Shown here: piece by piece, positions 15,494 to 31,394 of the stretch
Layout: each line of letters begins with the position of its first letter
Numbering within the stretch: position 1 is the first letter of the stretch
Source: Caulobacter sp. X
GTDB lineage: Bacteria; Pseudomonadota; Alphaproteobacteria; Caulobacterales; Caulobacteraceae
Length of the DNA: 64,000 nt
Direction: 5' to 3'
Assembly: GCF_002742635.1 (NCBI RefSeq)
Contig: NZ_PEGF01000001.1
Span: 1,054,001 to 1,118,000 of the forward strand
Made by a program: the position numbers and the translations under genes
Notes under the pieces: model-generated
Told to the model about the DNA's origin: nothing
Seen by the model: only the letters and a program-made list of their open reading frames with translations
Database searches by the model: none

Positions 15494-15505
15494 AGGCGCC
15501 TTGAG

Positions 15506-15540
15506 CCCTCGCCGGTCCTGCCCGGCGAGGGTTTTCTTTT
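15506..15540 (+). terminator. Intrinsic terminator of the TonB receptor gene
   Basis: A perfect 10-bp stem CCCTCGCCGG / CCGGCGAGGG with a 6-base loop is followed by TTTTCTTTT. It separates the receptor gene from the convergent phage-tail locus. Confidence 0.85.
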
Positions 15541-15548
15541 GGCTGGCG

Positions 15549-15785
15549 CTAGGGCTTGGGCTCGGCCGAAACGGCTTGCGGCGCCGGGGGACAGGCGCGG
15601 GTCACCTTCAGCGCGCCGCCTCCGGGCTGGGCCTTGTCGAGGGTCAGGTCGACGGTGCGCTCGCAGCCCTCGTTCAGGATCTGGACCGCGCGCGCCAGGG
15701 TGACGGGATCGGCGGCCAGACCCGCGCAGCCAGACAGCATGACGGCCATGACGAGGCCCGCCATCGGGCCGATGATGTGTTTCAT
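15549..15785 (-). CDS. Small lipoprotein at the end of the tail locus (possible o-spanin)
   Basis: A 78-residue protein with a lipobox signal sequence (GLVMAVMLSGC, Cys about residue 20) and a short proline-rich tail. It is the last gene of the phage-tail cluster, 28 bases after the endolysin, with AGGGAG before its start. Outer-membrane spanins (Rz1) are small lipoproteins in just this setting, so it may complete lysis together with the coiled-coil protein two genes upstream. Only the lipoprotein nature is visible; the spanin role is inferred from context. Confidence 0.6.
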   Translation of the reverse strand: MKHIIGPMAGLVMAVMLSGCAGLAADPVTLARAVQILNEGCERTVDLTLDKAQPGGGALKVTRACPPAPQAVSAEPKP

Positions 15786-15813
15786 CGCAAAACTCCCTTT
15801 AAGGGTTTGGGGA

Positions 15814-16362
15814 TCAGGCCGCGTGACCCAGGAAGACGGCGCGCTCGGCCTCGCGGCGGGCGACCAGGCCCGGCAGCTCGCGGCCGCCGGCGAAGCGCCA
15901 CAGGCGGAAGGCGTCGGCCGCCCCCGCGACGTCGCCGGCGATCAGCTTTCGGCGCACGCTGCTGTCGGCGAAGTCGGGACCGCCGCCGACCTCCCCGACG
16001 CCGATGTTGTAGGCCAGGCTGACCATCGCCCCCAGCTGACCGTCGCTCAGCGGCGTGCGGGGAAACAGCGCGACGACCTTGTCGCAGACGGCCTGGGCGT
16101 CGGCCTTCAGCAAGGCGTCGGCGTCCGCCCGGACCATCCCCGCCGGCCAGCGCGCGCGCCACAGCCGATAGGCGGTCTCGCGGTCGCGGACAGGCTTGCC
16201 GGCGACGAACAGCGCATGGCCCCAGCCGACGGTGTAGAGGCCGACCGGATCGGCCTGAGGCTCCAGCACGGCGGTCGCCTTGTCGCCGTCGTGCAGCCCC
16301 TCGAACCGCTTGATCAGCGCGAGCGCGCAGGCGGGAACGCCCCGCGCCGAGGGCGTGGGCAT
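15814..16362 (-). CDS. Phage-type endolysin (GH24 lysozyme)
   Basis: A 182-residue muramidase with the T4/R21 lysozyme signature. The catalytic Glu is in LIKRFEGLHDG, and VGLYTVGWGHAL plus LSDGQLGAMVSLAYNIGVG follow as in GH24 enzymes. No cleavable signal peptide is evident, so release needs a holin or a SAR-like mechanism. It lies between a coiled-coil membrane-anchored protein and a small lipoprotein, giving a three-gene lysis cassette. It would cut host peptidoglycan to free particles made by the tail locus. Confidence 0.88.
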   Translation of the reverse strand: MPTPSARGVPACALALIKRFEGLHDGDKATAVLEPQADPVGLYTVGWGHALFVAGKPVRDRETAYRLWRARWPAGMVRADADALLKADAQAVCDKVVALFPRTPLSDGQLGAMVSLAYNIGVGEVGGGPDFADSSVRRKLIAGDVAGAADAFRLWRFAGGRELPGLVARREAERAVFLGHAA

Positions 16363-16396
16363 GGTTGGGGTCCTTTCGTGGGAGGTGGTTAGGCGG

Positions 16397-16828
16397 TCAG
16401 CCGACCGCGGGGGTGACGACCGGCTTGTCGCCGGCCGCCACTTCGAAGTGCTGGGACGAAGGCTCGTCGGCCAGGCCGTGGACGGCCAGGACGCGGCGAT
16501 AGGCCGAGACCTTAGCCTCCAGCTGGCGCTTCTCGCCCTCCAGGAGGGCGATGCGGGCGTCCTTGTCGAGGATCATGCGGCTATGCTCGCGGCGCAGGTC
16601 GCTCAGCTCGGCCTCGACCTGTTCGAGGCGCTGAGCCAGGCGTTCGGCCTCCTCGCGCAGGGTGTGGATCACCCCCGAGGCGGCGTCCTGCGCCATCTGC
16701 ATCAGATCCGCCTCGGCCCTGCGGGCCAGAGCCCGCCGGCCGAGGAGATCCTTGATCACCGCATAGACCCCCGGCGCGGCCACCACGGCGTAGGGCCACG
16801 TCTTGGCGAGGGCTGTGGGGAGGTCCAT
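16397..16828 (-). CDS. Membrane-anchored coiled-coil protein (holin or i-spanin candidate)
   Basis: A 143-residue protein with one weak N-terminal hydrophobic segment (WPYAVVAAPGVYAVI, residues 11-25). A long charged coiled coil follows at about residues 40-115 (EEAERLAQRLEQVEAELSD and similar heptads). One anchor plus coiled coil is the plan of inner-membrane spanins (Rz), and the next genes are an endolysin and a lipoprotein. Members described as phage holin-like share this layout too. No strong Shine-Dalgarno sequence is visible. Either reading keeps it in the lysis cassette. Confidence 0.5.
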   Translation of the reverse strand: MDLPTALAKTWPYAVVAAPGVYAVIKDLLGRRALARRAEADLMQMAQDAASGVIHTLREEAERLAQRLEQVEAELSDLRREHSRMILDKDARIALLEGEKRQLEAKVSAYRRVLAVHGLADEPSSQHFEVAAGDKPVVTPAVG

Positions 16829-16856
16829 GGGGGTTAGGGCTGGGCGTTAGACCCGC

Positions 16857-18005
16857 CTACCACTCCACGACGACGAGACCGTCGCCGCCCTGGGACGCGC
16901 CACTGCCAACGCCAGCACAGCCACCGCCGCCGCCGCCGTAGCCTGGCTTCTGAGCATAGGCACTCGAACTCGCTGTCACAGCTCCGCCAGCGCCGCCAAA
17001 TGCCCCACCGCCAGAGGCGAGGTAGGTGGTTCCGTTCGCATTTGCATGACCACCGCCGCCTGCGCCCGTACCGCCAGACCCCGAAGCGCCGCTCTGTCCG
17101 TAGGCCGGCCCACCGCCGCCACCCGCGAAGGCATCGCCGGGAAATCGGAAGATGGCGCTACTAGAATTGGCGACACCGTTGACGAATTGCTGTGATGCGC
17201 CGAACAGCAAGTCGAAGCCGCCCGTCAAGTTCGTTGAAGGGCCCGCTATACCAGCGCCACCTGTCGCGATAGAAGACCCAGATCGGGTAATTGAAAATGA
17301 AGCGGTGCCTCCAACGGCGCCGCCCCCTGTGGCCGCTGGTCCTGTCACGCCGTTAGACCCAGAGATCGAGCCGGAATCTCCACCAGTGCCTAGCTGCGAA
17401 CCAGCGCCGCCGCCGCCCGTGGCACTGAATGCCCCGTTTGCATCGATCGAACCCGACTTTCCGCCCGCGGCATTGATGATGGTACCGCCCGAACCAGAAC
17501 CACCTGCCGAGCCTGAAAGGGCGCCAGTGGTGGCGTACGTACCGCCCGCACCACCAGTTGCGGAGAGATAACTCCCGAATGAAGAGGTTCCGCCCGCTAT
17601 TCCGGAGGCGGAAGTGCCACTAGTTGACACCGCGCCCCCCTTGCCAACGGTAACTGTTACGGTTTGCCCTTGGGTTAGCCACACAAGACCCATTGCGTAT
17701 CCGCCGCCCCCACCACCGGTGGCGCGTCCTGGGTCGGTAGTCGAGAGCGCGCCGGAACCACCGCCGGCCAATACTCTGACACGGTAGTATCCAGCCACTG
17801 GCGCGGCGAATGTGGCCGCGTCAGTGAAGACAGAGTAACGCCCGGAACCGAAAACACCGAGCCATCCGACAGGTGGAACTGAGTTGCCGGTGAGAAAAGG
17901 CGGGGCGCTACTGGATTGGCCGGTTGGGGAGGGAGCAGCGCCCGCCCCCTGCGCCGACCCGATCCGCCCCAGCACACCTCGGTTGGAACTGCTTGGAATC
18001 GGCAT
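16857..18005 (-). CDS. Glycine-rich tail adhesin (receptor-binding candidate)
   Basis: A 382-residue protein. The N-terminal 60 residues are a linker; a short beta region follows (YYRVRVLAGGGSG), then about 250 residues of repeated GGxGG, GAGG and GGGGG runs. Such runs fold as stacked polyglycine-II helices in the gp38-type adhesins of T-even phages such as S16. Position at the end of the fibre genes supports a host-recognition tip. Its third codon positions are much richer in A and T than its neighbours, suggesting a separate origin or rapid exchange. It starts two bases after the preceding gene. Confidence 0.65.
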   Translation of the reverse strand: MPIPSSSNRGVLGRIGSAQGAGAAPSPTGQSSSAPPFLTGNSVPPVGWLGVFGSGRYSVFTDAATFAAPVAGYYRVRVLAGGGSGALSTTDPGRATGGGGGGYAMGLVWLTQGQTVTVTVGKGGAVSTSGTSASGIAGGTSSFGSYLSATGGAGGTYATTGALSGSAGGSGSGGTIINAAGGKSGSIDANGAFSATGGGGAGSQLGTGGDSGSISGSNGVTGPAATGGGAVGGTASFSITRSGSSIATGGAGIAGPSTNLTGGFDLLFGASQQFVNGVANSSSAIFRFPGDAFAGGGGGPAYGQSGASGSGGTGAGGGGHANANGTTYLASGGGAFGGAGGAVTASSSAYAQKPGYGGGGGGCAGVGSGASQGGDGLVVVEW

Positions 18006-18007
18006 GT

Positions 18008-18403
18008 TTACAGCCCCGCCTTGTGATGGATGATGTTGAAAGTTTCGGCGTTGTGCGTCGCCGCGTAGAGCTCGGTCGTCGCGCCCTGCAGCGTCAGACC
18101 GGTCAGCGCGTCGACGATCGTCGTGAAAGCCGGCGCCGTGCCGCTGGGCGTGGCGCCGAGCACCGCGACCTCGGTCAGGAAGAACTTCGATGCGCCGCCG
18201 TTCAGCGACAGGAAAAAGCGGATCATGCCGGACGTGGTGTTGCCGGTCGCGGTGACCCGGAGCTGTTCGGTGACGATGCCCGAGGCCGTGCCGGTGGCGA
18301 CCTTGACCATCGTGCCCGTACCGTCGCGGTTGGTGTTGGCGGCGGTCAGCTGGACGATGTCAGGCGCAAGCGGCGTGGACGCGAAATTGGGCGCGGTGGC
18401 CAT
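18008..18403 (-). CDS. Small tail-fibre-associated structural protein
   Basis: A 131-residue, probably all-beta protein rich in Thr, Ala and Gly (GTMVKVATGTASGIVTEQLR, RFFLSLNGGASKFFLTEVAV). It has no enzyme motif. It is packed between the fibre gene (two-base gap) and the glycine-rich adhesin (two-base gap), so it is probably a virion-type structural protein such as a fibre connector. I do not recognise the family. The in-frame ORF runs far upstream; the ATG at MATAPNF is chosen because it directly follows the previous stop. Confidence 0.55.
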   Translation of the reverse strand: MATAPNFASTPLAPDIVQLTAANTNRDGTGTMVKVATGTASGIVTEQLRVTATGNTTSGMIRFFLSLNGGASKFFLTEVAVLGATPSGTAPAFTTIVDALTGLTLQGATTELYAATHNAETFNIIHHKAGL

Positions 18404-18405
18404 GT

Positions 18406-19176
18406 TCAAATCCCTTGTTGTTGCCAGGAAAAGAGGTTGCCGCCGTTGTCCGGGACCCACTCGGTGTCGAAGTCGACGGCGGATTTCTTGCGGAACAGCT
18501 GGCCGGGCAGACCGCCGGCGGGGAAGCCTGCGCCCGGAACGCCCGGGACGCCGCCGATGCTGATGTCCCAGTTGCTGATCGTGCCAGTGGTCGCCGAGGT
18601 CTGGGTGACAGCGACAGTCAGCGTCGTTCCGGCGTACGAGGTGCAGACGCCGACCATGAACCGGCTGGGATCGCCGTGCGCGACGGCGTAGATCGGCATG
18701 CCCTCGACAAAACTCTCGCCGCTGCTGACGGTCCAAGTCTTGGTCCCAACGGCGATCGCGTTGGACGTGAGAGACGTGGTCGAGAACGAGACGCCCGACG
18801 CGACGTTCTGGACCTGCGCCAGGATCGCGGCGGCGTCGTTGGCCTTGGTGGTCGCGATGCCGGCCTGGGTGGTGGCGAGGGCCACCTGCCCCGCGGCCAA
18901 AGTCACCTGCCCGGCGGCCAGCGTGACTTGGTTAGCCGCCAGCCCCACCTGATCCGCCGCCTGCGTCGCCTTGGTGGTCGCCGTGGTCGCGGAGGCGGCG
19001 GCCGACGCCTTGTCCGCGGTGACCTGGACGGCTAGGCCGTTCACCTCCGTCGCCAGCGCGTTCGCCTGCGTCACGAAGGTCGGCATCTGGCCGAGGAAGG
19101 CGTCGGCGCGGGTGTTGAAGTTGGCGGGATCGTTGGTGGAGGGCGGCGTGGGAAGCGCCGTGATTTGTGCGGGCAC
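18406..19176 (-). CDS. Tail fibre-like protein with repeated coiled segment
   Basis: A 256-residue protein. Residues 1-45 are an N-terminal attachment-like region with NTRADAFLGQMPTFVTQANA, which is common in phage tail proteins. A helical stretch follows with near-identical units (NQVTLAAG, GQVTLAAG, GQVALATT), probably a trimeric coiled coil, then a beta-rich domain and a short collagen-like turn (GVPGVPGAGFPAGGLPG) near the end. The start is a GTG five bases after the stop of the upstream tail gene. The role as fibre or fibre shaft is inferred from this layout and from position. Confidence 0.6.
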   Translation of the reverse strand: MPAQITALPTPPSTNDPANFNTRADAFLGQMPTFVTQANALATEVNGLAVQVTADKASAAASATTATTKATQAADQVGLAANQVTLAAGQVTLAAGQVALATTQAGIATTKANDAAAILAQVQNVASGVSFSTTSLTSNAIAVGTKTWTVSSGESFVEGMPIYAVAHGDPSRFMVGVCTSYAGTTLTVAVTQTSATTGTISNWDISIGGVPGVPGAGFPAGGLPGQLFRKKSAVDFDTEWVPDNGGNLFSWQQQGI

Positions 19177-19181
19177 GGGGA

Positions 19182-20330
19182 TCAGACCTCTTCGAGTTCG
19201 AGGGAAATCAGGGCGTCCTCGGGCTGGTCCATCGTGATCGTGAACCGCTTGTAGACGCCGACGATGAGCAGGGCCGAGAAGTAGCCACTGTCCTGGTCGT
19301 CCAGGCCCGACCACAGCGCCGGCGCGGCGTTGAGGTCGTCGCGCAGCTGCAGGATCCGATCGACGTCGGACTTCTTGCAGCGCAGGGTCTGGACGGTGCG
19401 CGGCACCGAGCGGCGCGGCACGAGCGTGGCGGTCCCGAAGTCGTCGCGGTCGATCTTCGAGAAGTTCAGCGCGTCGCTCTCGGCCTCGTGCAGGGTGCGA
19501 CCCAGATAGACCGACGAGCCCACCACGACGCCGCCGCAGGCGACGTTCCCGTTCGCCCGGGTCAGGGTGATGGTGATGACCGCGCCGGTGTAGGGCGGCA
19601 GGTCGAAGCGCGCGAACTCCTGTTGGTAGCGGAACGCGCCGAAGAAGTAGTCGTACCAGCCGCTGGTCGGCCGCTTCAGCAGGTCGGCCGAGGCGGTGTA
19701 GACGGTGTTTCCGGCCACGCTGACCGTGACGGTCACGGTGTCGGCGACCATGCCGACGACACCGATCGAGTCCACCCGCTGGCCTGGCGTGAGCGACACG
19801 GTCAGCGGCGAGGCCGTCGTCGTACCGGTGTTGCGCAGCAGGTCGAACATCGCCCAGCGATTGGTCGGGCCGATGTCGATCCACCAGCTGTCGTCGGTCG
19901 CCGGGTCGTGGCCCAGGTTCGTGGTGACGATCGCCGTGTGCGAGCCACTTTGAGCGCCGCTGAACGCGATGGCGGACCCGCCGCTGGACGCCGCGACCTT
20001 GAAGGTGTTCGCTGTGTCCGAGAGCACGTAGTAGGTCGTTCCGGCGGTCAGGCCCGACGGCAAGGCGCCGGTCGTCGCGAAGCTGATCGGCGTATTGGCG
20101 ACAAGGCCATGATTGGCCCAGGTCACGAGGCCGGTTCCCGTCGCCAGGGTGACCGCCGCAACCTTGCTCGAGATCGACTCGTAGACGCGGTGGCTGGTCG
20201 TGCTGATCACACGGTCCCCACCCTTGTAGGCGGCGCCGGCGCTCCAGACGGTCTCCCCCGCCGAAGGCTCGGCGCAGGTCGTGCTGGTCAGCATGGCGGG
20301 CGTGATGGGAATGGGAGGAAGCGCGCGCAT
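19182..20330 (-). CDS. Distal tail/baseplate-type structural protein
   Basis: A 382-residue protein immediately downstream of the tape measure gene, overlapping it by one base (TGATG). The N-terminus carries a small aromatic module (VWSAGAAYKGGDRV) like carbohydrate-binding modules of phage tails. A Gly/Thr-rich insert follows (LTAGTTYYVLSDTANTFKVA) of the kind seen in many phage hub proteins, then a beta-rich body with GWYDYFFGAFRYQQEFARFD. The C-terminal part (RCKKSDVDRILQLRDDLNA, ALLIVGVYKRFTI) looks like a ring-forming domain. Family membership is uncertain; the structural role is supported by position. Confidence 0.6.
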   Translation of the reverse strand: MRALPPIPITPAMLTSTTCAEPSAGETVWSAGAAYKGGDRVISTTSHRVYESISSKVAAVTLATGTGLVTWANHGLVANTPISFATTGALPSGLTAGTTYYVLSDTANTFKVAASSGGSAIAFSGAQSGSHTAIVTTNLGHDPATDDSWWIDIGPTNRWAMFDLLRNTGTTTASPLTVSLTPGQRVDSIGVVGMVADTVTVTVSVAGNTVYTASADLLKRPTSGWYDYFFGAFRYQQEFARFDLPPYTGAVITITLTRANGNVACGGVVVGSSVYLGRTLHEAESDALNFSKIDRDDFGTATLVPRRSVPRTVQTLRCKKSDVDRILQLRDDLNAAPALWSGLDDQDSGYFSALLIVGVYKRFTITMDQPEDALISLELEEV

Positions 20331-23300
20331 CAGGCGGCCGCCTGGGTCTGCATGGCGCGGCCGCCCTCGGTGACGTTGGTCAAGGTGCGCTCCATCTTGT
20401 CGTTGGTGGTGGCGATGCGGGCGCTGGTGGCGCGCAGGTCGACGAGCTCCTCGCGCAGGCGTCGCAGTTCGTTGACGACGTTCTGGTCGCCGCTCTCGCC
20501 GCGCCGACGGACGTTCACAGCCTCGCCGGGGCTCAAAGCCAGGCTGAACAGCTTGGAGTCCGGAGGGCCGGAGCCGCCGACCTCGAAGCTGCCGCCGGTG
20601 GCGTACTTCAGAGAGCCCGATTGGAAATAGGACAGCTGCCCCGCCTCGACCAAGGCGTTCGCCTTTTCAATGCCGTAGGCGGACACGATGTCCATGTAGC
20701 CGGGATTGTAGCGAGCCGCCGTCTCCTTGGCGTACCGGGTGGCCTCCGTCTCAACCCCCGTGTCGTATCGGCCCATCTCGCTGTTGACCAATCCCCAGAA
20801 AAAGGAGGCGTTGTTCAGCGCCTTCTGGGCATCGGAAAGAGATGGCGTCGTGGTTGTCGCCGTCGGCGGAGTCGATGTCGCGCCAGGAACGGGTTGCCCG
20901 CCAACGGAGACCACCCCGGCCGCCGCAGCCGCCTGATTGGCCGCACGAAGCCCCGCGATCGCGTCCCGCACCGAGATCACGCTGGTGTTGATCTGGATCA
21001 GCCCCTCGACGGAGGCGTTCAAGGCCTTGAGCTGCTCCTCCGCGATCGAAGCTTGGCGGTCGGCGGTGTCGGCGGCCTCATCGACCGCCGAGCGGACCAG
21101 GCCGACGTCGCGCAGGTAGTCCTGGCTGGTCGCGACATAGTCCCGCGACGCGGCCGTGAACGCCTCGCCCTCGGTCTGAAGACGGCTCATGGCGTCGGGA
21201 TCGCCAAGGCGCGCCATGGCCGCCGTCGCCAGGAACGCCTGCCGGGTCGAGCGATAGCGCCCGGCCAGGTCCGAGCCCGCGATGGTCGCCGACAGACTGG
21301 CGCTGAAGCCGCGCAGCGACTTGGACAGCTCGGCGAACTTGTCCTTGGTCGCCTGGATGGCGTCGCGTTCTCGGTTGTAGGCTTCGGTCAGCACATCCCG
21401 CGCGGCCGAGACCTTCTCGGCGGCGTCCTGGGCGGCCCAGGTGCGCCGCATGTACTCCTTCTGGACCTCGTCCTCGACGTCGGCCAGGGCCAGGTCGCGC
21501 CGCATGGACTTGGCCAGATCCGTATGGCCCTGGGCGTCCAGAAGATCAGCCAGGGCGCTCGAGCGGTCCCTGGCCAGCGCCTTGGCCTTGGCCTCCTTCT
21601 CGGCGGCGTCCGCGGCGGCCTTGGCCGCGTCCTCCACAGCCCATAGGGACTTGAGCAGCGGCAGCAGCGAAGCATCCAACGCGCTGACGGCGTCTTCCTC
21701 GGCCTTACGCGACTTGGCCAGCTTCTGGGCGGGCGACAGGACGAGGTCGTCGATCTGGTCCTGCAGCGACGTGGCCTTGTCCTCGACCGCCGCCTTGGCG
21801 GCCTCCGCCGCCGTCGCGACCTTGTCGAAGGCCGGCGCCAACGCCATCAGCGCGGCGTACATCTTGGCGCCGTCCTCGGTGGAGAGGTTCTGCGAGAGGA
21901 CAAGACTCTTGAAGCCCTCGCGGTCCAGATCGGCGGGCAGCTTCAGCTCGGCCAGTTTGCCGGCGACCGCGTCCTTGACCGGCTTCAGCCGCTCTTCCTC
22001 GGTCAGGAAGTGCTCGGCGAAGAAGGACGCCTGGTCCGTCAGGGCGTCGAGGCCGCCGACCAGATCGACCAGACGCTCGCGGGCCTCCAGCGAGGCGACG
22101 CCGACCGCGCCGAACGTCATGCCGACCGACTTCAGCGTCGTGTCGATCACTTCGTACTGGCGGGCCACGCGAACCAGGGTCTCGAAGGCGCCCTCGCCCA
22201 CCTCCTGGAACTGGGCGATCGCCGGGACCGCCGCCTTGGCCATGTCATCGCCCAGCTTGCCGAAGACGGCGTTCAGCGCCTCTTCGATCTGGGCGCCGGT
22301 CATGTCCTTGAACGACAGCTTGCCCAGATCGACGGTGAAGCTGGCGAGAGTCTCCTCGATCCCGGTCGCCTGCAGCGCCTTGGCGGCGTCCTTGACGCCG
22401 TCGCCCAGCGCGCCGATCAGCTTGGTGACCTGCAGCAGGAAATCCGCGTCCAGCGCGCCCGTCTGCGTCGTCACCTTGCTCTTGTTCGAGGTGGTGATCC
22501 CGAAGGCCTTCTTCTTCGTCGTCTCCAGCACCTGTTGGTAGGTCGAGCCCGACAGGCCGCCGGCGACGATGTCGGCGAGGCTGGCGGCGTCGAACGCGAT
22601 GCCCTGGTCCTGCAGAGTGCGGGTCGTCGACTTGGAGAAGCCAAGGTTCGACAGCGTGGCCGACGTCCCGCTCTTGCCGAGATTCAGCCCCTCGGTGCTC
22701 AGCATGCCGCCCGCCCCGAACGAGCGCGCCAGGGCGGCGGCCACGGCGCCGATCTGGTCATCGATCGATTTCAGCGACCGGACCATGGCGTTACCGTATT
22801 CCAAGTCCTTGTTCTCGTAGGCCTGGGCGTGGGTCAGCGCCTTCTCCAGGCTCTCGGACTTGGCCTTGGAGTCGCCGAGGACCGAACCAGAGCCTTGGGC
22901 GTCCTGACGGGTCTTCATGTCGTTGGCGCCGGGGACGGAGCCGCCGCCGGGCTTGCCTTTGATCGCCGCGCCGACCTGGACTAGGGCCGCGAGCACCGCG
23001 GCGCCGGCCAGCAGGTTGAACGGAAATGGCAGGCTGCCCAGGATTTTAGCGTAGGCGGTGGCGGCATAGGCCGCTTGTTTCGGGGCTTCAGCGGCTGCGA
23101 CACTCGCCGTGTCAGCGCCGCGTAGCGCCATCGACTTGATCGTGTTCAGTGTCTCGATCGTGTGGAACGCGATCTCCGCGACCTGCATGGCCTTGTAGCC
23201 GTCGGAGCCTTCTTTGAAGAACCCCTTCGCAGCGCTGGCCATGGCCTCATAGCCTTTGACCCTGGCTTGATCGCGCTTGGCTTGTTCCTCGGCCGTCAGG

Positions 23301-25192
23301 GTGCGTCCGGCCGCCTCCCTGTCGATCTTCGCGACCTCCAACGAATAGGCTGAGAAGCTCGTCAGCAGACCGCCTAGCGCCTTACCGCTTTTGCCGAAGG
23401 CCGCCTCGAACTGTTTGCTGAGCTCGGGCGCCAGCGCATTGACGTCCGTGAGCTTCTTGATCAGCTCATCGAGGCTCTTGGTGATCGGATCGACAAAGGA
23501 CGTCAGTCCTTCGACGTTGGCGACAGCGGGCCGTACGCCCTCCAAAGGCGCCTCTTGAGAAGCCGAGATAGGCTCCTGAGAGACTGCGGCCGTTCGTGCT
23601 TCGGATTTGCCGGGTGCCTGGGTGTTCGTCCGCCGGACCGAATCTTCCGCGTCCTTCACGGACCCGCTGATTTTGCCGGCCTCATCCTCGATCCGGTCCT
23701 TGGCGATCTCGACGGCGCGGCCGGCGATCTCCGCCGGGATGTTCATGACGCCCTCGAAGCCGCCCTTGAAGCCGTTTCCGAAGGCGGCGCTGATCGCGCT
23801 GCCCGCCGACTTTGCCGCGCCCTCGAACTGGTTCGCCAACTTCCCGACCTGAACCTGGCCTAGATCGGGGAGCTTCAGCGACAGTCCAAGCTGCTTGGCC
23901 AACCAGTTGACCGTGCCGATCAGGCCGTTGGCGATGCCGATCGCGCCATTGACCATCCTGCCCACACCATCGAGCACGAAGTTGACGCCCGAGATGATGA
24001 TATCGCCCATCGCCGCTGGCAGCACCGACCAGGCCACGCGGATGGCCTGGACCGCGCCGGCAAAGGCGCCGACCGCAAAGGCGGCCGCCTTCAAGGCCAC
24101 GTCAGTCACGGTGTGATAGACGGCCATGAAGCCGTCCCCGATCGCCTTCAAACCAGGTCCGAACGCCGCCCGCAGCCGCTCGCCCAAGGCCTCGAATGTG
24201 GCCTTTGCGACATCGCCCATGGTGACGGACTTGTCTTTAACCCGCCCCATCTGCTCTTCGGTCAGGCCCATGTCCTTGGTGAGGTCGCCGGCCTTCTCGC
24301 CAATGTCGTGCGCGGCGATGGCGAAAACGGTCGCGACGCCCGCCGCCGCGACGGCGATGCCCGCGAGGATCGCCCCCAGGGGCGCTAGAGCGACGCTTTC
24401 CGCAGCCGCCAGTTCGCCCGCCGCGACGGTCTGAGCCTCCAGAGCCGCCGTCGCCATCGCGGCCGACACGGCGTTCACATCCTGGGCGGCGGCGGCGCCC
24501 GTCGTGGCCACCTGCAGAATCCCGGTCGCCAAGCCCAGCGACTTGAAGGTCTCGACGAGGCTGACGCCATCCATCCTGGCCTTAAGCAGCGTCTTGGCGA
24601 CGTCACCGCCCTTCTCGGTCAGGACCTTCATCGGCGCCTCGCCCGACGCCAGCGCCGACACCGTATCGATCATCGTTCCGCCGAGCGTCTGAGCGGTTTC
24701 GTGGACCTTCTTCAGCTTCTCCGCGCTCTTGCTGGCGGCCGCTTCGGTCCTGCCGAGGGCTTCCGAGACCGCGCCCTGACCTTCAGAAACCGACACGCCC
24801 GCCGATTGCATCTGAACCAGCGCCTGATTGTAAGTGTTGATAGCCACGCCGCTCTGCTGGATCACGATGGCGGTGGCCTGCAGGCGATCGCCCACATCCT
24901 TCAAAACGCTGCTGAGTGGGGTCAGCGCGCCTAGCAGGGCGGAGAACCGGCTATCCAGCTCCGCCACCCCGCCAACGGCCTTGGCCGCCTGCCGTGAGAA
25001 AAGACCCGTCTCGGTCGCCAGGCTCTCGATGTCCTTGGCCGCCCTGGCCGCCTGCTTGTCGAAGGCCCCGATGGTCGCGGTCAGCTGGTCAGTCGCCTTT
25101 TTGGTCGCCAATTGCGCGACCGTCAGGCCCGCGGTGGCGATGGCAGCCTTCTTCAGCCCCGCGGCCAGCTCATCCAGATCCTTGTCAGCCAC
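20330..25192 (-). CDS. Tail tape measure protein
   Basis: A 1620-residue, mostly helical protein with long coiled coils and a few hydrophobic segments (for example APLGAILAGIAVAAAGVATV and FNLLAGAAVLAALVQVG), the usual make-up of tape measure proteins. It is preceded by the two overlapping chaperone frames, as in nearly all long-tailed phages. By the rule of about 0.15 nm per residue it would set a tail of roughly 240 nm. The frame is open 85 codons further, but the GTG at VADKDLDEL has GGGAG upstream. No embedded lysozyme or peptidase domain was noticed. Confidence 0.88.
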   Translation of the reverse strand: MADKDLDELAAGLKKAAIATAGLTVAQLATKKATDQLTATIGAFDKQAARAAKDIESLATETGLFSRQAAKAVGGVAELDSRFSALLGALTPLSSVLKDVGDRLQATAIVIQQSGVAINTYNQALVQMQSAGVSVSEGQGAVSEALGRTEAAASKSAEKLKKVHETAQTLGGTMIDTVSALASGEAPMKVLTEKGGDVAKTLLKARMDGVSLVETFKSLGLATGILQVATTGAAAAQDVNAVSAAMATAALEAQTVAAGELAAAESVALAPLGAILAGIAVAAAGVATVFAIAAHDIGEKAGDLTKDMGLTEEQMGRVKDKSVTMGDVAKATFEALGERLRAAFGPGLKAIGDGFMAVYHTVTDVALKAAAFAVGAFAGAVQAIRVAWSVLPAAMGDIIISGVNFVLDGVGRMVNGAIGIANGLIGTVNWLAKQLGLSLKLPDLGQVQVGKLANQFEGAAKSAGSAISAAFGNGFKGGFEGVMNIPAEIAGRAVEIAKDRIEDEAGKISGSVKDAEDSVRRTNTQAPGKSEARTAAVSQEPISASQEAPLEGVRPAVANVEGLTSFVDPITKSLDELIKKLTDVNALAPELSKQFEAAFGKSGKALGGLLTSFSAYSLEVAKIDREAAGRTLTAEEQAKRDQARVKGYEAMASAAKGFFKEGSDGYKAMQVAEIAFHTIETLNTIKSMALRGADTASVAAAEAPKQAAYAATAYAKILGSLPFPFNLLAGAAVLAALVQVGAAIKGKPGGGSVPGANDMKTRQDAQGSGSVLGDSKAKSESLEKALTHAQAYENKDLEYGNAMVRSLKSIDDQIGAVAAALARSFGAGGMLSTEGLNLGKSGTSATLSNLGFSKSTTRTLQDQGIAFDAASLADIVAGGLSGSTYQQVLETTKKKAFGITTSNKSKVTTQTGALDADFLLQVTKLIGALGDGVKDAAKALQATGIEETLASFTVDLGKLSFKDMTGAQIEEALNAVFGKLGDDMAKAAVPAIAQFQEVGEGAFETLVRVARQYEVIDTTLKSVGMTFGAVGVASLEARERLVDLVGGLDALTDQASFFAEHFLTEEERLKPVKDAVAGKLAELKLPADLDREGFKSLVLSQNLSTEDGAKMYAALMALAPAFDKVATAAEAAKAAVEDKATSLQDQIDDLVLSPAQKLAKSRKAEEDAVSALDASLLPLLKSLWAVEDAAKAAADAAEKEAKAKALARDRSSALADLLDAQGHTDLAKSMRRDLALADVEDEVQKEYMRRTWAAQDAAEKVSAARDVLTEAYNRERDAIQATKDKFAELSKSLRGFSASLSATIAGSDLAGRYRSTRQAFLATAAMARLGDPDAMSRLQTEGEAFTAASRDYVATSQDYLRDVGLVRSAVDEAADTADRQASIAEEQLKALNASVEGLIQINTSVISVRDAIAGLRAANQAAAAAGVVSVGGQPVPGATSTPPTATTTTPSLSDAQKALNNASFFWGLVNSEMGRYDTGVETEATRYAKETAARYNPGYMDIVSAYGIEKANALVEAGQLSYFQSGSLKYATGGSFEVGGSGPPDSKLFSLALSPGEAVNVRRRGESGDQNVVNELRRLREELVDLRATSARIATTNDKMERTLTNVTEGGRAMQTQAAA

Positions 25193-25254
25193 AACGGCTC
25201 TCCCAAAAGGTTCGGGCCGCGCTCCGCCTGCGCGGAGCAACGGCCCGGTGGTGG

Positions 25255-25632
25255 TCAGCCGCCCTTGGCGGGGGCCGTCATCGTCAGAAGGTGTTCGGCG
25301 TCGAGGGCGACCAGGGCCCGGCGCTCCCACGGCTCCAGCCGCACGCCCTCGTCGCGCTCCCAGGCCTGGATCTCCAGGCGCGAGAGACGCGAGGGGCCAA
25401 AGCCGCCGCTCTGGCGGGTCTGGCAGAGGTCGGCGTACCAGGCCCATAGGTGGGCGACGTACGGCGACAGCGGCGGCGGGTTGGCGAGCCGCCAGGTCGC
25501 CTCGGGATCGCCCTGACGGGCCAGGCTCTCGAGGTGGACCCGCAGCGGCTCGCCGTCGTCCTGCCGCCCGGCGAGCTCGAACTGCTCGCGGGCGTGGGCG
25601 ATCAGGCCGCGGACTTGCCCGGCATAAAATTT
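25255..25632 (-). CDS. Tail assembly chaperone, -1 frameshift extension (GT-like)
   Basis: This frame adds about 125 residues to the upstream chaperone when ribosomes slip at AAATTTT (25626-25632). The joined protein would read NLGNF then YAGQVRGLIAHAREQ and continue through WRLANPPPLSPYVAHLWAWY to a stop at 25255. Lambda G/GT and most siphophage chaperone pairs use the same device just before the tape measure gene. No convincing independent start codon or ribosome binding site exists in this frame, which supports frameshift expression. The full fused product would span 26045 to 25255. Confidence 0.75.
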   Translation of the reverse strand, partial: KFYAGQVRGLIAHAREQFELAGRQDDGEPLRVHLESLARQGDPEATWRLANPPPLSPYVAHLWAWYADLCQTRQSGGFGPSRLSRLEIQAWERDEGVRLEPWERRALVALDAEHLLTMTAPAKGG

Positions 25633-26045
25633 CCGAGGTTGTTCGACGCCGTGGTGACCTGCTCGGCGATCTCGGAATTGCGGCTGACCAGGCGGTAGGC
25701 GTTCTCGGCCGACCACTCCTGCTTGATGCCGCGCCAGCCGACCAAGCGGACGGCGGTCAGGCGGTGGCCGAAGGCGATGTCATCCTCAATCGGCGTGAAG
25801 TCGGCCTTGTCGGGGTTGGCCCGGCCCTGCATGGCCGCGGCCACGGCCTGCTTCTTGCGGCGGTCGTTGACGAGGCGGTTGACCTCGGCCTGGACCTTCT
25901 CGGATTGGCCGCCCAGCACCAGCAGGAAGACGCCGGAGCCCGAGCCGTCGGCGCGGACGTATTCGATCTCGAAGGGGGTGTCTCCGGCCGAGACGGCGTC
26001 GAGGTCGTTCAGGTCGAAGAGGGTTTCGGTCGAGGTCTTGATCAT
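25602..26045 (-). CDS. Tail assembly chaperone (G-like)
   Basis: A 147-residue protein ending NNLGNFMPGKSAA. It has an acidic N-terminal half with EYVRADGSGSGVFLLVLGG and a lysine-rich helix. It lies between the tail tube gene and the tape measure gene, and its last 30 bases hold the slippery heptamer that feeds into the longer GT-like product. These chaperones keep the tape measure soluble and recruit tube subunits. The start ATG follows AAGGACAG. Sequence identity to named families is weak, so the call relies on order plus the frameshift. Confidence 0.75.
   Translation of the reverse strand: MIKTSTETLFDLNDLDAVSAGDTPFEIEYVRADGSGSGVFLLVLGGQSEKVQAEVNRLVNDRRKKQAVAAAMQGRANPDKADFTPIEDDIAFGHRLTAVRLVGWRGIKQEWSAENAYRLVSRNSEIAEQVTTASNNLGNFMPGKSAA
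25626..25632 (-). promoter_or_regulatory. Programmed -1 ribosomal slippery site AAATTTT
   Basis: Read on the minus strand in the zero frame as GGA AAT TTT ATG, this is the X-XXY-YYZ heptamer A-AAT-TTT. Slipping back one base gives AAA TTT TAT GCC, which joins the chaperone to the second frame exactly where its homology-like sequence begins. Confidence 0.8.
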
Positions 26046-26133
26046 GGATCTGTCCTTGAAAAGGACGGCCGGGCGCGACCCGGCCGCTAAGTTGAGGGGG
26101 ACTTCGGGAGAGAGGGAAAGAAGGACCGCGCCG

Positions 26134-27348
26134 CTAGGCGGCGCTGTCCTGGATCGCGACGATGGTCTGGTCGGTGGCCAGAGCCGCGCCGCCGTTTGCG
26201 TTGATCTGGGCCGTGAACGGATAGGTCCGGATCACAGCCTTCTCGCCGTCGTCGGGGGTGTCGCCGGTCAGCTTGATCATCGGCAGATTGATGACCACGA
26301 AGTCGGCGTTGGCGGTGGCGTCCTCGGTGACCGCCAGGACCAGGGAGGTGGTCGAGCGGCCTTCGAAGATCGTCTGCAGGGTCACGCCGTCGAACTTGGC
26401 GGTGAAGCTGCCCGACACGGCCAGGCGGCCGCGCTGGATGTCGTCGACCACGTTGGAGCCCACCACGGCGTCGCTGTGGGCGGCGTTGCCGTTGATGGTG
26501 ACCTGGGCGCCGGTGACGTTGGCGACCGGCGCGCCGTTGACCAGGATCACGCCGTTCACGGCCGTCAGGATGTCGGTCACCGTCTCGGCGGTCGGCGAGG
26601 TCAGCACCTGGGCGGCGCCCAGCGTGCGGGTGCGGCCGACGGTGTCGAGGCTGATCGTGGCGTTGCCCGTGGCCGGCAGGTTCAGCGCGGCCTGGCCCAC
26701 CTGCTGATCGGCGTAGATTTCCGAGCGGCCGAGGTCCGGATACCACTCTTCGAAGGTGTAGTAGTCGTTGGTGTGGCCGTTGAGCGGGACGAGCGACTTC
26801 TTGCCGGTGACGGCGAGCGTGGCGCTGGCGATGTTGCTCTCGGCGACCAGGGCCGAGCCGTTGACCACCCGTACGGTCGCCACGGTGGCGGTCAGGGCGA
26901 TGATCAGCAGGTTCTTCTGGCTGTTGGCGGCGTTGAACGAACCGGCTGTCAGGCGCACGACGTCGCCGATCTTGAAGCCGTCGGTCAGGTACGAGCCGGC
27001 GGCGCGGGTCAGGGTCCAGTTCTGGCCCGAGGCGGCGATGGTGATGGTGGCGCCGGTCGCCGAGACGCCTGTCGTCATGTCCTTGCGCAGCAGCGAAGCC
27101 AGCAGGGTGGCGTAGGTGCCGGGCGACAGCAGACCGTCGATCTTGCCCGCCGGCTTGACGACGCCCAGACCGACGCCGGTCGACTGCTGGTGGCCGACGA
27201 TCTCGTTGCTTTCGAAGGTGTCAGGCGGGGCCTGGAACACCGAGCTGGTGCGGCGGACGACCTGGCCGCCCGAACCGGCGGCGGCTGCGCCGAGGCCGGT
27301 CTGCTTCTTGTAGACGGTCTTCTTGTTGATGCCCTGGGCGACAGCCAT
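26134..27348 (-). CDS. Phage tail tube protein
   Basis: A 404-residue protein starting MAVAQGINKKTVYKKQTGLG, a typical beginning for tube proteins of long flexible tails. It is rich in Thr, Ala, Val and predicted beta strands (TGATITIAASGQNWTLTRAA; SAVTEDATANADFVVI-like C-terminus), with no cysteine. The gene lies between the tail terminator and chaperone genes and has AGGAG upstream. It is larger than the minimal 200-residue tube fold, so a decoration domain is likely. No contractile sheath gene exists nearby, so the tail should be non-contractile. Confidence 0.75.
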   Translation of the reverse strand: MAVAQGINKKTVYKKQTGLGAAAAGSGGQVVRRTSSVFQAPPDTFESNEIVGHQQSTGVGLGVVKPAGKIDGLLSPGTYATLLASLLRKDMTTGVSATGATITIAASGQNWTLTRAAGSYLTDGFKIGDVVRLTAGSFNAANSQKNLLIIALTATVATVRVVNGSALVAESNIASATLAVTGKKSLVPLNGHTNDYYTFEEWYPDLGRSEIYADQQVGQAALNLPATGNATISLDTVGRTRTLGAAQVLTSPTAETVTDILTAVNGVILVNGAPVANVTGAQVTINGNAAHSDAVVGSNVVDDIQRGRLAVSGSFTAKFDGVTLQTIFEGRSTTSLVLAVTEDATANADFVVINLPMIKLTGDTPDDGEKAVIRTYPFTAQINANGGAALATDQTIVAIQDSAA

Positions 27349-27430
27349 GGGGATCTGCTCCTTGGAAGTTATCGGGAGGGGTGGGGTCAGACGAGGCGGA
27401 AGGGCCCGTCCCTTCGGGCGGAGACCGCCG

Positions 27431-27835
27431 TCAGCTGGTGATCGTGGCCAGGAACGGGACCTGCACGGGGACGACGTAGCGGTCGCCCTCCAGGGTCGCG
27501 GCCAGGATGAGAGGCGTGCGGGCGATGGTCGTGGTCAGGCCGTCGGCCGTGAACGCCGCCCCGCGATAGAAGGCCGCGCGGAGCAGCTCGACGCGCGCGG
27601 CGATGTCGGCCACGCCGGCGCCCTGCGGCCAGCACAGCGAGACCACGAACATCCCGCCCTGCTGGAAGCCGCGCCCGTACTCGGTGTTGACCGGCTCGGC
27701 GAAGGTCATCGACACCCGCTGGTAAGGCGTCCCGGCCGTCGGTGCGTAGGCGGTGTTCTCCCAGGCCGTGGCGAGCGGCGGGGTCATCGCGGCCAGGGCG
27801 GTCTCCAGCGCGGCGCGGATCTTGGCGACGCTCAT
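27431..27835 (-). CDS. Tail terminator-like protein (DUF4128-like)
   Basis: A 134-residue protein: SVAKIRAALETALAAMTPPL, then GTPYQRVSMTFAEP, FVVSLCWPQGAGVADIAARV and a closing strand YVVPVQVPFLATIT. This arrangement matches small ring proteins that cap the tail end next to the head (gpU-like, DUF4128). It is the most upstream structural gene of the cluster: head-completion, portal and capsid genes that would normally precede it are missing. The ATG overlaps the TGA of a short upstream frame (ATGA), which may be chance. Confidence 0.65.
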   Translation of the reverse strand: MSVAKIRAALETALAAMTPPLATAWENTAYAPTAGTPYQRVSMTFAEPVNTEYGRGFQQGGMFVVSLCWPQGAGVADIAARVELLRAAFYRGAAFTADGLTTTIARTPLILAATLEGDRYVVPVQVPFLATITS

Positions 27836-28112
27836 GGGCGGCTCGCCTGAACCAGGGCGCACGGAGGCGGGCCGGAAGCCGCGCGGCTTCCGACGGGACG
27901 GATCAGGATCATGGGGTCGGTTCCCAAAAACGGGGGACGTGGAGGCCGCCTTCCAAAGACGACCGCGCGAAGCCTGCTCACGCCACCGCGTGAACAGGAT
28001 AAGGATTGGGAAGGGCTGGAAAGTCTTCGGGAGATCAAAGCGCTGTCAGAAGGCGCATCTCCGAGACTGACTGGATTAGACCTTTTACCGGCCCGACCGT
28101 CAATCCATTTGT
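27836..28112. other. Gap between regulators and tail structural genes
   Basis: This 277-base stretch has lower G+C than its flanks and no convincing gene. A 26-codon frame (27832-27912, minus) ends in an ATGA overlap with the terminator gene but has no good ribosome binding site. In a phage this is where head genes would join the tail module. It is a plausible place for a late promoter or an antitermination site acting on the minus strand. Confidence 0.4.
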
Positions 28113-28790
28113 TCATGAAATGTTCTTTTCTTTGCGGTCGCGGGCGATCTGCCTGGAAAGGTTCGCGACCAGTGACATCGCCTCGATGAAGACTTGCCGG
28201 TTCTGAACGAGGGCGCGGCCGGCGCCGAACGCGGACAGGCTCGTCCCCTCCCCAGCCACGGCGCGCAGGAGGCGCAGGGCCATGGGCTTGTCGGCCAGAC
28301 ACATGGCGACGGCGCGGTCGGCGCGGATCACGAAGTCCAGGCTGCGCGCCCGCCGCAAACGCGCGGCGACAAAGCGGTCGTTGTCATGCCCCCCGCCCCG
28401 GCCAGGCTCGAGGCTGGCGGCGCGCAGGTCGCGGCCCCGCGCCTCGAACCCCAGGCGATACAGTAGACCGACGGCGTACTGCGCCTCGTCGATATGGCCA
28501 GCCTCCCGCAGACTGCGCAGGCCGTCGCGGCTGGAGACCCTCAGCTTGCCGGCCGAGGTCTCGACGCGCTCTCCCCGCGCGCGGGCCAGGGCGAAGGTCT
28601 CGACCAGGCCGGCGGCGACGTTCGCCTCGCCGCGTCGGGCCGCCTGGGCGCCAACGATGCGCTGCATGGTCTCGCGCGCGGCCTGGCGGGCGGCGGGACT
28701 GAGCGCCAGCGCGGCCGCGCGATCGGCGCGGGCCAGGTCGCGCAGCTCGGCCGAGGTGAGCCCTTCCGGGCGGAGGACTTGGGCGGAAAT
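28113..28790 (-). CDS. DUF6456-like (GafZ-like) regulator candidate of the tail locus
   Basis: A protein of about 225 residues, basic and helical. A block with LREAGHIDEAQYAVGLLYRL is followed by a charged linker, a helix RFVAARLRRARSLDFVIRAD and a C-terminal block LRAVAGEGTSLSAFGAGRAL. This two-block plan resembles DUF6456, found in GafA/GafZ activators of gene transfer agents; the match is by eye only. No ATG, GTG or TTG lies at a sensible place. The best start is an ATT at 28790 with AAGGGG seven bases before it, 29 bases after the previous gene; otherwise the first ATG is 41 codons later. It may switch on the tail genes. Confidence 0.5.
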   Translation of the reverse strand: MSAQVLRPEGLTSAELRDLARADRAAALALSPAARQAARETMQRIVGAQAARRGEANVAAGLVETFALARARGERVETSAGKLRVSSRDGLRSLREAGHIDEAQYAVGLLYRLGFEARGRDLRAASLEPGRGGGHDNDRFVAARLRRARSLDFVIRADRAVAMCLADKPMALRLLRAVAGEGTSLSAFGAGRALVQNRQVFIEAMSLVANLSRQIARDRKEKNIS

Positions 28791-28818
28791 GGTCGATCCC
28801 CTTGTGCTCGAAGATGGG

Positions 28819-29034
28819 TCAGCGCCCGAAGCGGACGCCGCGTCGGTTCTGGGCCAGGGCGTGGCGGCGAGCCTCGCCGGCGCAGACCTGGGCGACGAAG
28901 TCGTGGCCTTCGCTCTCGGCCAGCATCCGGCCGGCGGCGCGGATGATGGCGCACAGCATCGGCCTGCGCGGACCACAGGCGCGGACGGCCTGGTCGATCG
29001 CGCCCTCGGCGACCTCGTCCTGAAGGCCAGTCAC
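28819..29034 (-). CDS. Small hypothetical protein of the regulator operon
   Basis: A 71-residue helical protein with three cysteines (VRACGPRRPMLCAIIRAAGR, AQVCAGEARRH). The start is a GTG that overlaps the upstream stop as GTGA, so it is coupled to the preceding gene. It precedes the DUF6456-like gene. No family is recognised. Confidence 0.6.
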   Translation of the reverse strand: MTGLQDEVAEGAIDQAVRACGPRRPMLCAIIRAAGRMLAESEGHDFVAQVCAGEARRHALAQNRRGVRFGR

Positions 29035-29456
29035 CCGCCCGCCGCCTCCAGGGCGGCGTGGCCGGCGGCCGTCAGGCGGACGCGGCAAGGGCGGCCGGCC
29101 AGGCGCTCGACCAGGCCCAACCCGCGCGCCGCCTGCGCCCGGTCGCTGCCGGCCGACAGGCTGACCGCCATCTCGTCAGCCAGATCCGCCAGGGTCAGGG
29201 CGCCGTCGGACAGCGCCTCCAGCACCGCCAGGACCTTGGCGGGAACGACGGGTTCGTCCGGCAGCGCGCCGCACAGCCTGGCGCGGAGGGCGTCGGACAG
29301 GGCAAAGCGATCGGGCCGCGGGTCGCCCATCAGCCGGGCGGTCAGCACCGCGCGCGGGCGTCGCCGGTCCGCCTCGGTGCGCCGGGCGACATAAGCGTGG
29401 AGCGAGGCGCGCGCGGGCGCATGACCGGGCGAACCGGTCGCGAGGATCGGAATCAT
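29031..29456 (-). CDS. Winged-helix-like regulator of the tail locus
   Basis: A 141-residue protein. The second half (VVPAKVLAVLEALSDGALTL, ADLADEMAVSLSAGSDRAQA, RGLGLVERLAGRPCRVRLTA) has the helix-helix-helix-wing layout of MarR/wHTH DNA-binding proteins. It is the first gene of the leftward operon and has AGGAA seven bases before its ATG. It faces an XRE regulator across a 180-base region with two inverted repeats. It could be an activator acting together with the downstream genes; no exact family is recognised. Confidence 0.55.
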   Translation of the reverse strand: MIPILATGSPGHAPARASLHAYVARRTEADRRRPRAVLTARLMGDPRPDRFALSDALRARLCGALPDEPVVPAKVLAVLEALSDGALTLADLADEMAVSLSAGSDRAQAARGLGLVERLAGRPCRVRLTAAGHAALEAAGG

Positions 29457-29550
29457 CTGGAATTTCCTGCGGCTTGCAGCCGATGGAGGGGAATTGGGCG
29501 GGAAGCCCAGCTTGGCTCGCGGGGCCAAGGGCGCAACTTCCGGAATATCC

Positions 29551-29571
29551 AATTTGTACCAAATACAAATT
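29551..29571. promoter_or_regulatory. Inverted repeat 1, candidate XRE operator
   Basis: AATTTGTA and TACAAATT are perfect 8-base arms around CCAAA. The site lies in the AT-rich divergent region between the leftward tail operon and the XRE gene and overlaps the next repeat. Confidence 0.6.
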
Positions 29572-29589
29572 TGCATGGCAAGCAAATTT
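29567..29589. promoter_or_regulatory. Inverted repeat 2, candidate XRE operator
   Basis: AAATTTGC and GCAAATTT are perfect 8-base arms around ATGGCAA, sharing five bases with repeat 1. A further half-site AATTTGC occurs at 29630, just at the XRE start. Overlapping dyads suggest cooperative or alternative binding that controls both directions. Confidence 0.6.
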
Positions 29590-29636
29590 TGTGTTTAATG
29601 CGTGGATATTCCCCCTTCGCTCCCGTTGGAATTTGC

Positions 29637-29981
29637 ATGACGACCGATCGGCAGGCCAAGGCGCAGCGGCGCGGCAAGACCTTCATCCGCGCCTGGCGCA
29701 AACACCGCGGCATGAACCTGGAGCAGGCCGTCGAGCGCTTGGAGCTCGAGGTGGGCTACCCCTATTCCGTCGCCCAGCTCTCACGGGTCGAGCGCGGCGA
29801 GACCGGCTATTCGCAGGACGTGCTGGAGGCCTTGGCGACCATCTATCGCTGCGAACCGGCCGACCTGATCATGCGCGATCCGGAGGCCTCCGAGGCGATC
29901 TGGTCGATCTGGGACCAGCTGCAGCCCGTCCAACGGATCCAGCTAGTCGAGATCGGTCAAACCCTTAAAAAGACCGGATAA
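29637..29981 (+). CDS. XRE-family repressor of the tail locus
   Basis: A 114-residue Cro/CI-type protein. The helix-turn-helix spans about residues 17-75 (FIRAWRKHRGMNLEQAVERL, YSVAQLSRVERGETGYSQDV, LEALATIYRCEPADLIMRD). There is no C-terminal peptidase domain, so LexA-like self-cleavage is not expected. It is transcribed away from the tail operon and is the only gene of this locus on the plus strand. By position it should repress the tail genes, much as RogA represses the GTA activators in C. crescentus, but that parallel is inference. The frame is open for 190 codons upstream; this ATG is the one matching the domain. Confidence 0.8.
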   Translation: MTTDRQAKAQRRGKTFIRAWRKHRGMNLEQAVERLELEVGYPYSVAQLSRVERGETGYSQDVLEALATIYRCEPADLIMRDPEASEAIWSIWDQLQPVQRIQLVEIGQTLKKTG

Positions 29982-30404: not shown

Positions 30405-30480
30405 TGGTAGGCCTGGAGGGACTCGAACCCCCAACCAGACCGTTATGAGCGGTCGGCTCTAACCATTGAGCTACAGGCCC
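30405..30480 (-). tRNA. tRNA with anticodon CAU, probably tRNA-Ile2
   Basis: A complete cloverleaf of 76 bases with encoded CCA. The acceptor stem GGGCCTG pairs with CAGGCCT (one G-U), and the anticodon stem GACCG/CGGTC holds loop CTCATAA, so the anticodon is CAT. The acceptor stem and general sequence resemble the alphaproteobacterial isoleucine tRNA whose wobble C is changed to lysidine rather than the elongator methionine tRNA, but this distinction is by memory. Confidence 0.85.
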
Positions 30481-30629: not shown

Positions 30630-31394
30630 ATGACCCACACCGCCCGCCGCCCCGCCAATCGCCTGATGGCCGCCTTCGCCGCCCCCGCCCTGATCGGCGG
30701 CGCCTTGCTGATGGGCGCGGTCGCCCCGGCCCTGGCCCAGACCAGCGCCGAGAGCGCCTTCAAGGCCACGACCTTCAACCTGTCGGCCTATGGCGAGACC
30801 CGCGTGGCGCCGGACATGGCCACCATCACCCTGGGCGTGCAGACCGAAGCCCCGACCGCCGGCGAGGCCCTGAAGGCCAACGGGGCGCGGATGAACCAGG
30901 CCCTGGCGGCGCTGAAGAAGGCCGGGATCGCCGAGCGCGACATCCAGACCTCGAACCTGAACCTGAACGCCCAGTACGCCTATGAGCAGAACCAGCCGCC
31001 GAAGCTGACCGGCTACCAGGCATCGAACCAGGTGACGATCACGGTCCGCGACCTCGCCAAGCTGGGCGCGACCGTGGACGCGGCCGTCGGCGCCGGCGCC
31101 AACACGGTCAATGGCATCAGCTTTGGCCTGACGAATCCGCAGGCGGCCGAGGACGCCGCGCGGCTGGAGGCGGTGAAGGCCCTGCAGGCCAAGGCCGAGC
31201 TGTATGGCCGCGCCACGGGCTACAAGGCCGTGCGCCTGGTCAATCTCAGCGAAGGCGGCGGCTATACGCCCCCCTCCCCGCCGATGCCGGTGTTCGCCAT
31301 GGCCAAGCGCGAGATGGCTGACTCGACCAGCATCTCGGCCGGCGAACTGAAGGTGCGGGTGGACGTCAGCGCCGTCTATGAGGCGGCGAAGTAG
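30630..31394 (+). CDS. Exported SIMPL-domain protein (DUF541)
   Basis: A 254-residue protein with a signal peptide (GGALLMGAVAPALAQ, cleavage about residue 37). One SIMPL domain follows: NLSAYGETRVAPDMATITLG, ALKKAGIAERDIQTSNLNLN, LTGYQASNQVTITVRDLAKL and GINGISFGLTNPQ-like sequence (TVNGISFGLTNPQAAED). Family members form periplasmic or outer-membrane assemblies linked to oxidative stress in other bacteria, but the exact activity is unknown. The start follows GGAGAAAAACG. It is monocistronic and ends in a bidirectional hairpin. Confidence 0.88.
   Translation: MTHTARRPANRLMAAFAAPALIGGALLMGAVAPALAQTSAESAFKATTFNLSAYGETRVAPDMATITLGVQTEAPTAGEALKANGARMNQALAALKKAGIAERDIQTSNLNLNAQYAYEQNQPPKLTGYQASNQVTITVRDLAKLGATVDAAVGAGANTVNGISFGLTNPQAAEDAARLEAVKALQAKAELYGRATGYKAVRLVNLSEGGGYTPPSPPMPVFAMAKREMADSTSISAGELKVRVDVSAVYEAAK

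Follow-up and report, generated by a model that had tools for sequence, protein, structure and literature searches.

The window, a 64-kb stretch of Caulobacter DNA, carries a set of phage tail genes that is not accompanied by head genes, which raises the question what such a tail is for and what controls it. An earlier note on this DNA had proposed a headless phage tail that was either tailocin-like or otherwise domesticated. We followed this up by ORF and codon-position analysis, HMM scans, structure prediction and comparison with 75 genomes of the genus and with environmental contigs. By analogy with known systems the locus most probably encodes an F-type tailocin, that is, a flexible, non-contractile, headless siphophage tail that would be released by lysis under direct control of the host LexA. 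We estimate the probability of this reading at about 0.8.

Gene content of the tail locus

The operon is read leftward from the minus strand (window positions 15549-29456) next to a divergent XRE gene (29637-29981). HMM scans identified the flanking genes as encoding a TonB receptor (12634-15360) and a SIMPL-domain protein (SIMPL gene, 30630-31394). Most genes were backed by open reading frames and codon-position bias. For the fibre and adhesin genes, in which the usual codon bias is missing, the calls depend on homology. The divergent orientation of the XRE gene given in the earlier note was correct, while its count of about 14 leftward genes becomes 15 products when the GT frameshift product is included. 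The features are:

15549-15785, minus: small lipoprotein, 78 aa, final gene of the operon (ORF/codon analysis)
15814-16362, minus: GH24 endolysin (PF00959, 6e-26; phrog_7, endolysin)
16397-16828, minus: membrane-anchored coiled-coil protein of the lysis region (weak match to phrog_2658, 'hol-like')
16857-18005, minus: glycine-rich fibre/adhesin, C-terminal part unconserved (phrog_863, 1e-16)
18008-18403, minus: fibre 2, in some relatives only (homology)
18406-19176, minus: fibre 1, N-terminus conserved, C-terminus swapped (comparison of relatives)
19182-20330, minus: distal tail/tip protein (phrog_6278, 3e-66)
20330-25192, minus: tape measure, 1620 aa, GTG start at 25192 (phrog_7740, 2e-44)
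25255-25634, minus: GT extension of the chaperone, via −1 frameshift (PF23812, 5e-13)
25626-25632, minus: slippery heptamer AAATTTT for the −1 frameshift (sequence)
25602-26045, minus: tail assembly chaperone G (phrog_313, 8e-9)
26134-27348, minus: tail tube protein, 404 aa (PF18906, 4e-21; phrog_290, 9e-43)
27431-27835, minus: tail terminator (PF13554, 2e-21; phrog_179)
28113-28790, minus: R3, 225 aa, conserved, fold unassigned (comparison of relatives)
28819-29034, minus: R2, 71 aa, conserved small protein (comparison of relatives)
29031-29456, minus: R1, 141 aa, weak winged-helix/HTH match (PF12840, 2e-4, below cut-off)
29637-29981, plus: divergent XRE regulator, 114 aa (PF13560, 4e-8)

The ORF/codon analysis and HMM scans confirmed the terminator, tube, frameshifted chaperones, tip, fibres, GH24 endolysin and lipoprotein that had been read earlier from the sequence. 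The tape measure length of 1620 residues was also right, and at 0.15 nm per residue it corresponds to a tail of ~243 nm, in agreement with the ~240 nm predicted in the note. Absent from that first reading were R1, R2 and R3 (28113-29456), the LexA box described below, and the slippery site. The chaperone pair overlaps at AAATTTT in the correct frame for a −1 shift, and the heptamer is unchanged in seven syntenic loci and in Caulobacter sp. BP25 (G101). The tube profile matched a solved major tail protein (8xan_B, 4e-7). The distal protein, for which structure prediction was of low confidence (pLDDT 66), is homologous to positions 13357-14262 of phage DMCA (PQ480021). Alignment revealed a conserved ATG upstream of the terminator gene, which may begin a ~26-residue leader peptide running to the terminator start codon (~27836-27912, minus strand).

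As the earlier note had claimed, HMM scans detected no head, packaging, integrase or replication genes between the TonB receptor gene and the SIMPL gene. No sheath family match was found there either, in line with the expectation of an F-type-like tail. In the lysis region the coiled-coil membrane protein may be holin- or i-spanin-like. The lipoprotein is 69-77% identical in relatives, gave no family match passing the cut-off, and can be called o-spanin-like by layout only. A clear holin was not found at the window locus; G201 and G101 hold two small membrane proteins in the lysis region instead, one of them a weak holin match. A strong terminator-like hairpin of 13 pairs (15503-15534) separates the operon end from the convergent TonB receptor gene, and a tRNA-Met gene (30405-30480) is located between the tail locus and the SIMPL gene.

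Copies of the locus and control of the tail operon

The tube gene was found in 12 of 75 genomes of the genus. In seven genomes the tail, XRE and R1-R3 genes occupy the site between the same flanking genes, namely the window genome, G134 (Caulobacter sp. 602-1), G167, G194 (Root343), G202, G207 and G213 (MAG BIN43); the G167 contig stops before the TonB receptor side. The locus genes are intact in all seven species. In G101 a headless tail sits elsewhere and the TonB-receptor/SIMPL site is empty; the short, empty site also occurs in G182, G130 and G071. G220, represented by a short contig, appears headless as well. Genome G201 contains a scar in which the lipoprotein, R3, R1, XRE and two small membrane proteins are kept and the tail genes are gone. 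Headed prophages with tubes 46-54% identical occur in G150, G132, G212 and G210, and a headed version of the window locus itself was found in no relative. Since carriers are a minority (7 of the 75 genomes searched, plus G101 and probably G220) and the tail genes are missing in G201, the locus is dispensable. Environmental copies of the headless locus are filed as viruses in IMG/VR (L149, L150, L153, L154, L155 and L156), and the L150 record takes in bacterial flank genes. L153 and L154 are nearly identical, which leaves five distinct environmental copies. Together with the seven syntenic loci these form the set of 12 headless loci used for comparison of the control region, where two features precede the terminator gene:

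28075-28103, minus: inferred tail-operon promoter (−35 TTGACG, 28103-28098; 17-nt spacer; −10 TCTAAT, 28080-28075)
28111-28125, minus: LexA box GAACATTTCATGAAC, 7 bp upstream of the −35 hexamer, spanning the R3 stop codon

The box is a perfect direct repeat GTTC-N7-GTTC (GAAC-N7-GAAC on the other reading) and the sole one in the window, the chance expectation for a perfect box being 1.45 per 64 kb and 0.008 per 350-bp gap. The published Caulobacter LexA consensus is GTTC-N7-GTTC (PMC12700426), and the same motif precedes the window genome's own lexA (GAACACAGGGGGAAC). Of the 12 headless loci, 11 have a perfect box at the corresponding site and the twelfth, G213, matches 7 of 8 positions. The 7-bp spacer within the box, which holds the R3 stop codon, differs among loci. 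The 12 boxes share descent and therefore do not represent 12 independent events. The geometry is the same in all 12: the box, exactly 7 bp, TTGAC (TTTAC in G207), a 17-bp spacer and TYTAAT. A generic promoter scan did not report the tail-operon promoter because it accepts only second hexamers with A as their second base. The conserved box and promoter geometry predict that the tail operon would be SOS-inducible.

No LexA box was found at the tail start of the related phages L151, L157 and L158, nor a perfect one directly upstream of the terminator and tube genes in DMCA. The headless loci of G101 and G220 also have no perfect box at the corresponding spot; they carry a divergent S24-type repressor there (phrog_4, E ~1e-11), in which the LexA/CI-family Ser (GHSM) and Lys (VKRL/LKRL) motifs are present. 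The simplest inference from these sequences is that the syntenic lineage appears to have exchanged a phage S24 repressor for direct control by the host LexA; the reverse order would be a less simple reading. For the wider proposal of a vertically inherited Caulobacter tailocin lineage that discarded the S24 repressor and brought its tail operon under host LexA, with BP25 and G220 as sisters that keep the phage-type repressor, we consider the odds even. If it is true, the regulatory steps of domestication are readable from living relatives.

The divergent XRE gene and R1-R3 probably give a second control layer. The R1-XRE intergenic region (29460-29636) contains an AT-rich stretch, AATTTGTACCAAATACAAATTTGCATGGCAAGCAAATTTTGTGTTTAATG, that is near-invariant in four genomes and is a likely operator for XRE. 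R3 has a probable start at a rare ATT codon (28788-28790, minus strand) behind a strong AAGGGG ribosome site; the codon is ATT in 10 of 12 loci and ATC in one, and ATG solely in the tail-less scar G201. No PDB structure matched an AlphaFold model of R3 (pLDDT 79) at E below 0.7. A role of R3 as sigma-like activator was set aside, the G220 homologue giving just a weak Sigma70_r4 match (0.005, below cut-off). R3 alone also was discarded as a marker of wider tailocin spread because distant homologues sit in ordinary prophages (L074, L076) and in other chromosomal settings.

In the six syntenic relatives the tube, G, GT and terminator proteins are 83-96% identical to those of the window. Fibre 1 combines a constant N-terminus with a replaced C-terminus. 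Fibre 2 and the adhesin occur in few relatives: fibre 2 is 85% identical in G207 and 92% in L153 and was undetected in the others, and the glycine-rich fibre/adhesin was found in G207 and one environmental copy only. Conserved structure with variable receptor binding has been described for tailocins (PMC12090994), and by these alignments the window locus displays that pattern of conserved structural genes and variable fibres.

If the locus encodes an F-type tailocin, DNA damage would activate RecA, LexA would be cleaved and the tail operon transcribed. Tubes of ~240 nm would then assemble, capped by the terminator where a head would sit, and the endolysin and membrane proteins would lyse a fraction of the cells. 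The freed tails would bind related Caulobacter via the variable fibres and kill them, presumably through envelope permeabilisation. We infer SOS induction, particle assembly and lysis release from the genes, and killing of relatives by analogy with characterized tailocins.

The lysis genes and SOS control would equally suit a headless tail that does not kill, such as an effector-injecting or contact device, or a programme whose true product is SOS-linked lysis; several genes of the fibre region are without known function. However, HMM scans gave no effector-like or toxin family matches within the tail locus, a sheath and contractile baseplate are absent, and the hypervariable fibres suit target recognition. 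The contact device or injection apparatus suggested in the earlier note gained no positive support in the analysis, and we regard a non-killing role as unlikely.

Selection on the tail genes and their phage origin

The dN/dS of the tube, G, GT and terminator genes was ~0.10-0.33, comparable to that of flanking genes, and XRE showed the strongest purifying selection in the locus (~0.04-0.08); these ratios are approximate, being simple Nei-Gojobori counts with the window as reference, and the one obtained for the tape measure of G167 should not be relied on. The tape measure itself is strongly diverged (43-61% identity) and mosaic. Core tail and flank distances were correlated (r = 0.87), and two well-supported sister pairs, G134/G207 and G167/G213, are present in both the tail and the flank trees.

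These data bear on the possibility that the locus is a decaying prophage remnant which lost its head genes by chance and is now functionless. Such decay would explain the scar without tail genes in G201, and it fits the patchy distribution and the clear phage derivation. It is difficult to reconcile with genes that are intact in seven species and core tail dN/dS values of 0.1-0.33, with the conservation of the slippery site, LexA box and promoter, and with tail divergence that follows the flanks. A remnant is therefore quite improbable.

The closest named phage is DMCA, with a tube 66% identical to that of the window. The DMCA head proteins match the prophages of G150, G132 and G212 and gave zero matches in the headless loci. 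Whole-genome searches found DMCA capsid and portal absent from the window genome and from seven other headless genomes, while the positive controls G150 and G212 gave DMCA-type capsid/portal matches. A split prophage, with matching head genes elsewhere in the genome, was rejected on this basis, the earlier note having asked for such a search to exclude it. The terminase-family matches in the window genome include one prophage and one gene-transfer-agent-type cluster. A prophage at G000:C2:1303000-1322900 (L041) has a terminase, a head-tail adaptor (phrog_332) and a major head protein (phrog_3437) and is unrelated to the window tail; a gene-transfer-agent-type cluster at G000:C2:875000-890000 (L042) has its own portal, capsid and major tail protein. 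The tail locus was not considered a gene transfer agent itself, as it has no capsid, portal or terminase and the cluster of that type elsewhere has its own tail. That the window tails serve to complete heads supplied by a resident phage or gene transfer agent (the genome does offer head genes in such a cluster and in another prophage) is highly improbable since the cluster comes with its own tail genes, the capsid and connector of the other prophage show no relation to those paired with the window tail type, and DMCA-type capsid and portal are absent.

Closer tail homologues were found in the uncultivated IMG/VR phages L151 (tube 87%, GT 86% identical to window) and L157 (tube 83%, GT 71%), with terminators just 48-50% identical. 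In both, terminase, portal and capsid genes are located directly upstream of the terminator gene; HMM matches to terminase, portal and major head protein confirmed the L151 head, and that of L157 was recognized from gene order and protein sequence. Judged from these similarities, the tail is descended from a headed siphophage resembling L151 and L157. In the tube tree the headless loci cluster with L151 adjacent. A single origin of the headless loci is not proven because the support is moderate and one row, G132, was unusable (wrong frame).

The sequence comparisons establish a headless siphophage tail module that is conserved and under selection, accompanied by lysis genes, with a LexA site conserved at the inferred promoter. 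Seven intact syntenic copies, purifying selection, lysis genes, swapped fibres and the LexA site bear out the idea of a headless domesticated tail.

Relation to known tailocins and phages

No reports of Caulobacter tailocins were found in the open-access literature, subscription papers and preprints being outside the scope of the search. Tailocins are known from few Alphaproteobacteria, and within the open literature searched this one would be the first from Caulobacter, a genus that is a major model for cell biology. The locus is present in the named isolates Root343, 602-1 and BP25 and is therefore directly testable. Taken in sequence, headed phages, headless loci under an S24 repressor, those under LexA and the scar without a tail would document the conversion of a phage tail into a host weapon, with control handed over to the host SOS system.

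The F-pyocins of Pseudomonas aeruginosa are under PrtN/PrtR control. They resemble the predicted product in being flexible, headless siphophage-type tails directed against relatives (PMC12090994, PMC10811719). The F-pyocin tail is described as Lambda-related whereas the window tail is of the DMCA type. DMCA itself shares a homologous terminator, tube, chaperones, distal protein and fibre N-terminus, but is a complete phage with terminase, integrase and head genes. L151 and L157, for all the similarity of tube and GT, differ from the window locus in having head modules and in lacking a LexA box at the tail start.

F-type tailocins also occur outside Pseudomonas, the genus from which the earlier note knew them: rhizoviticin of Allorhizobium vitis VAR03-1 is an F-type tailocin with demonstrated activity against relatives and was reported as the first alphaproteobacterial tailocin (PMC10811719). 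The window locus, as far as its genes tell, shares with rhizoviticin the alphaproteobacterial host and a headless non-contractile tail with lysis genes, and it would be expected to share the SOS-linked induction. Rhizoviticin retains a phage early region with an integrase remnant, replication genes and a LexA-family (CI-like) repressor, whereas the window locus has none of these and has a host LexA box right at its tail promoter. New here is this LexA box at a fixed distance from the tail-operon promoter, which predicts direct LexA control.
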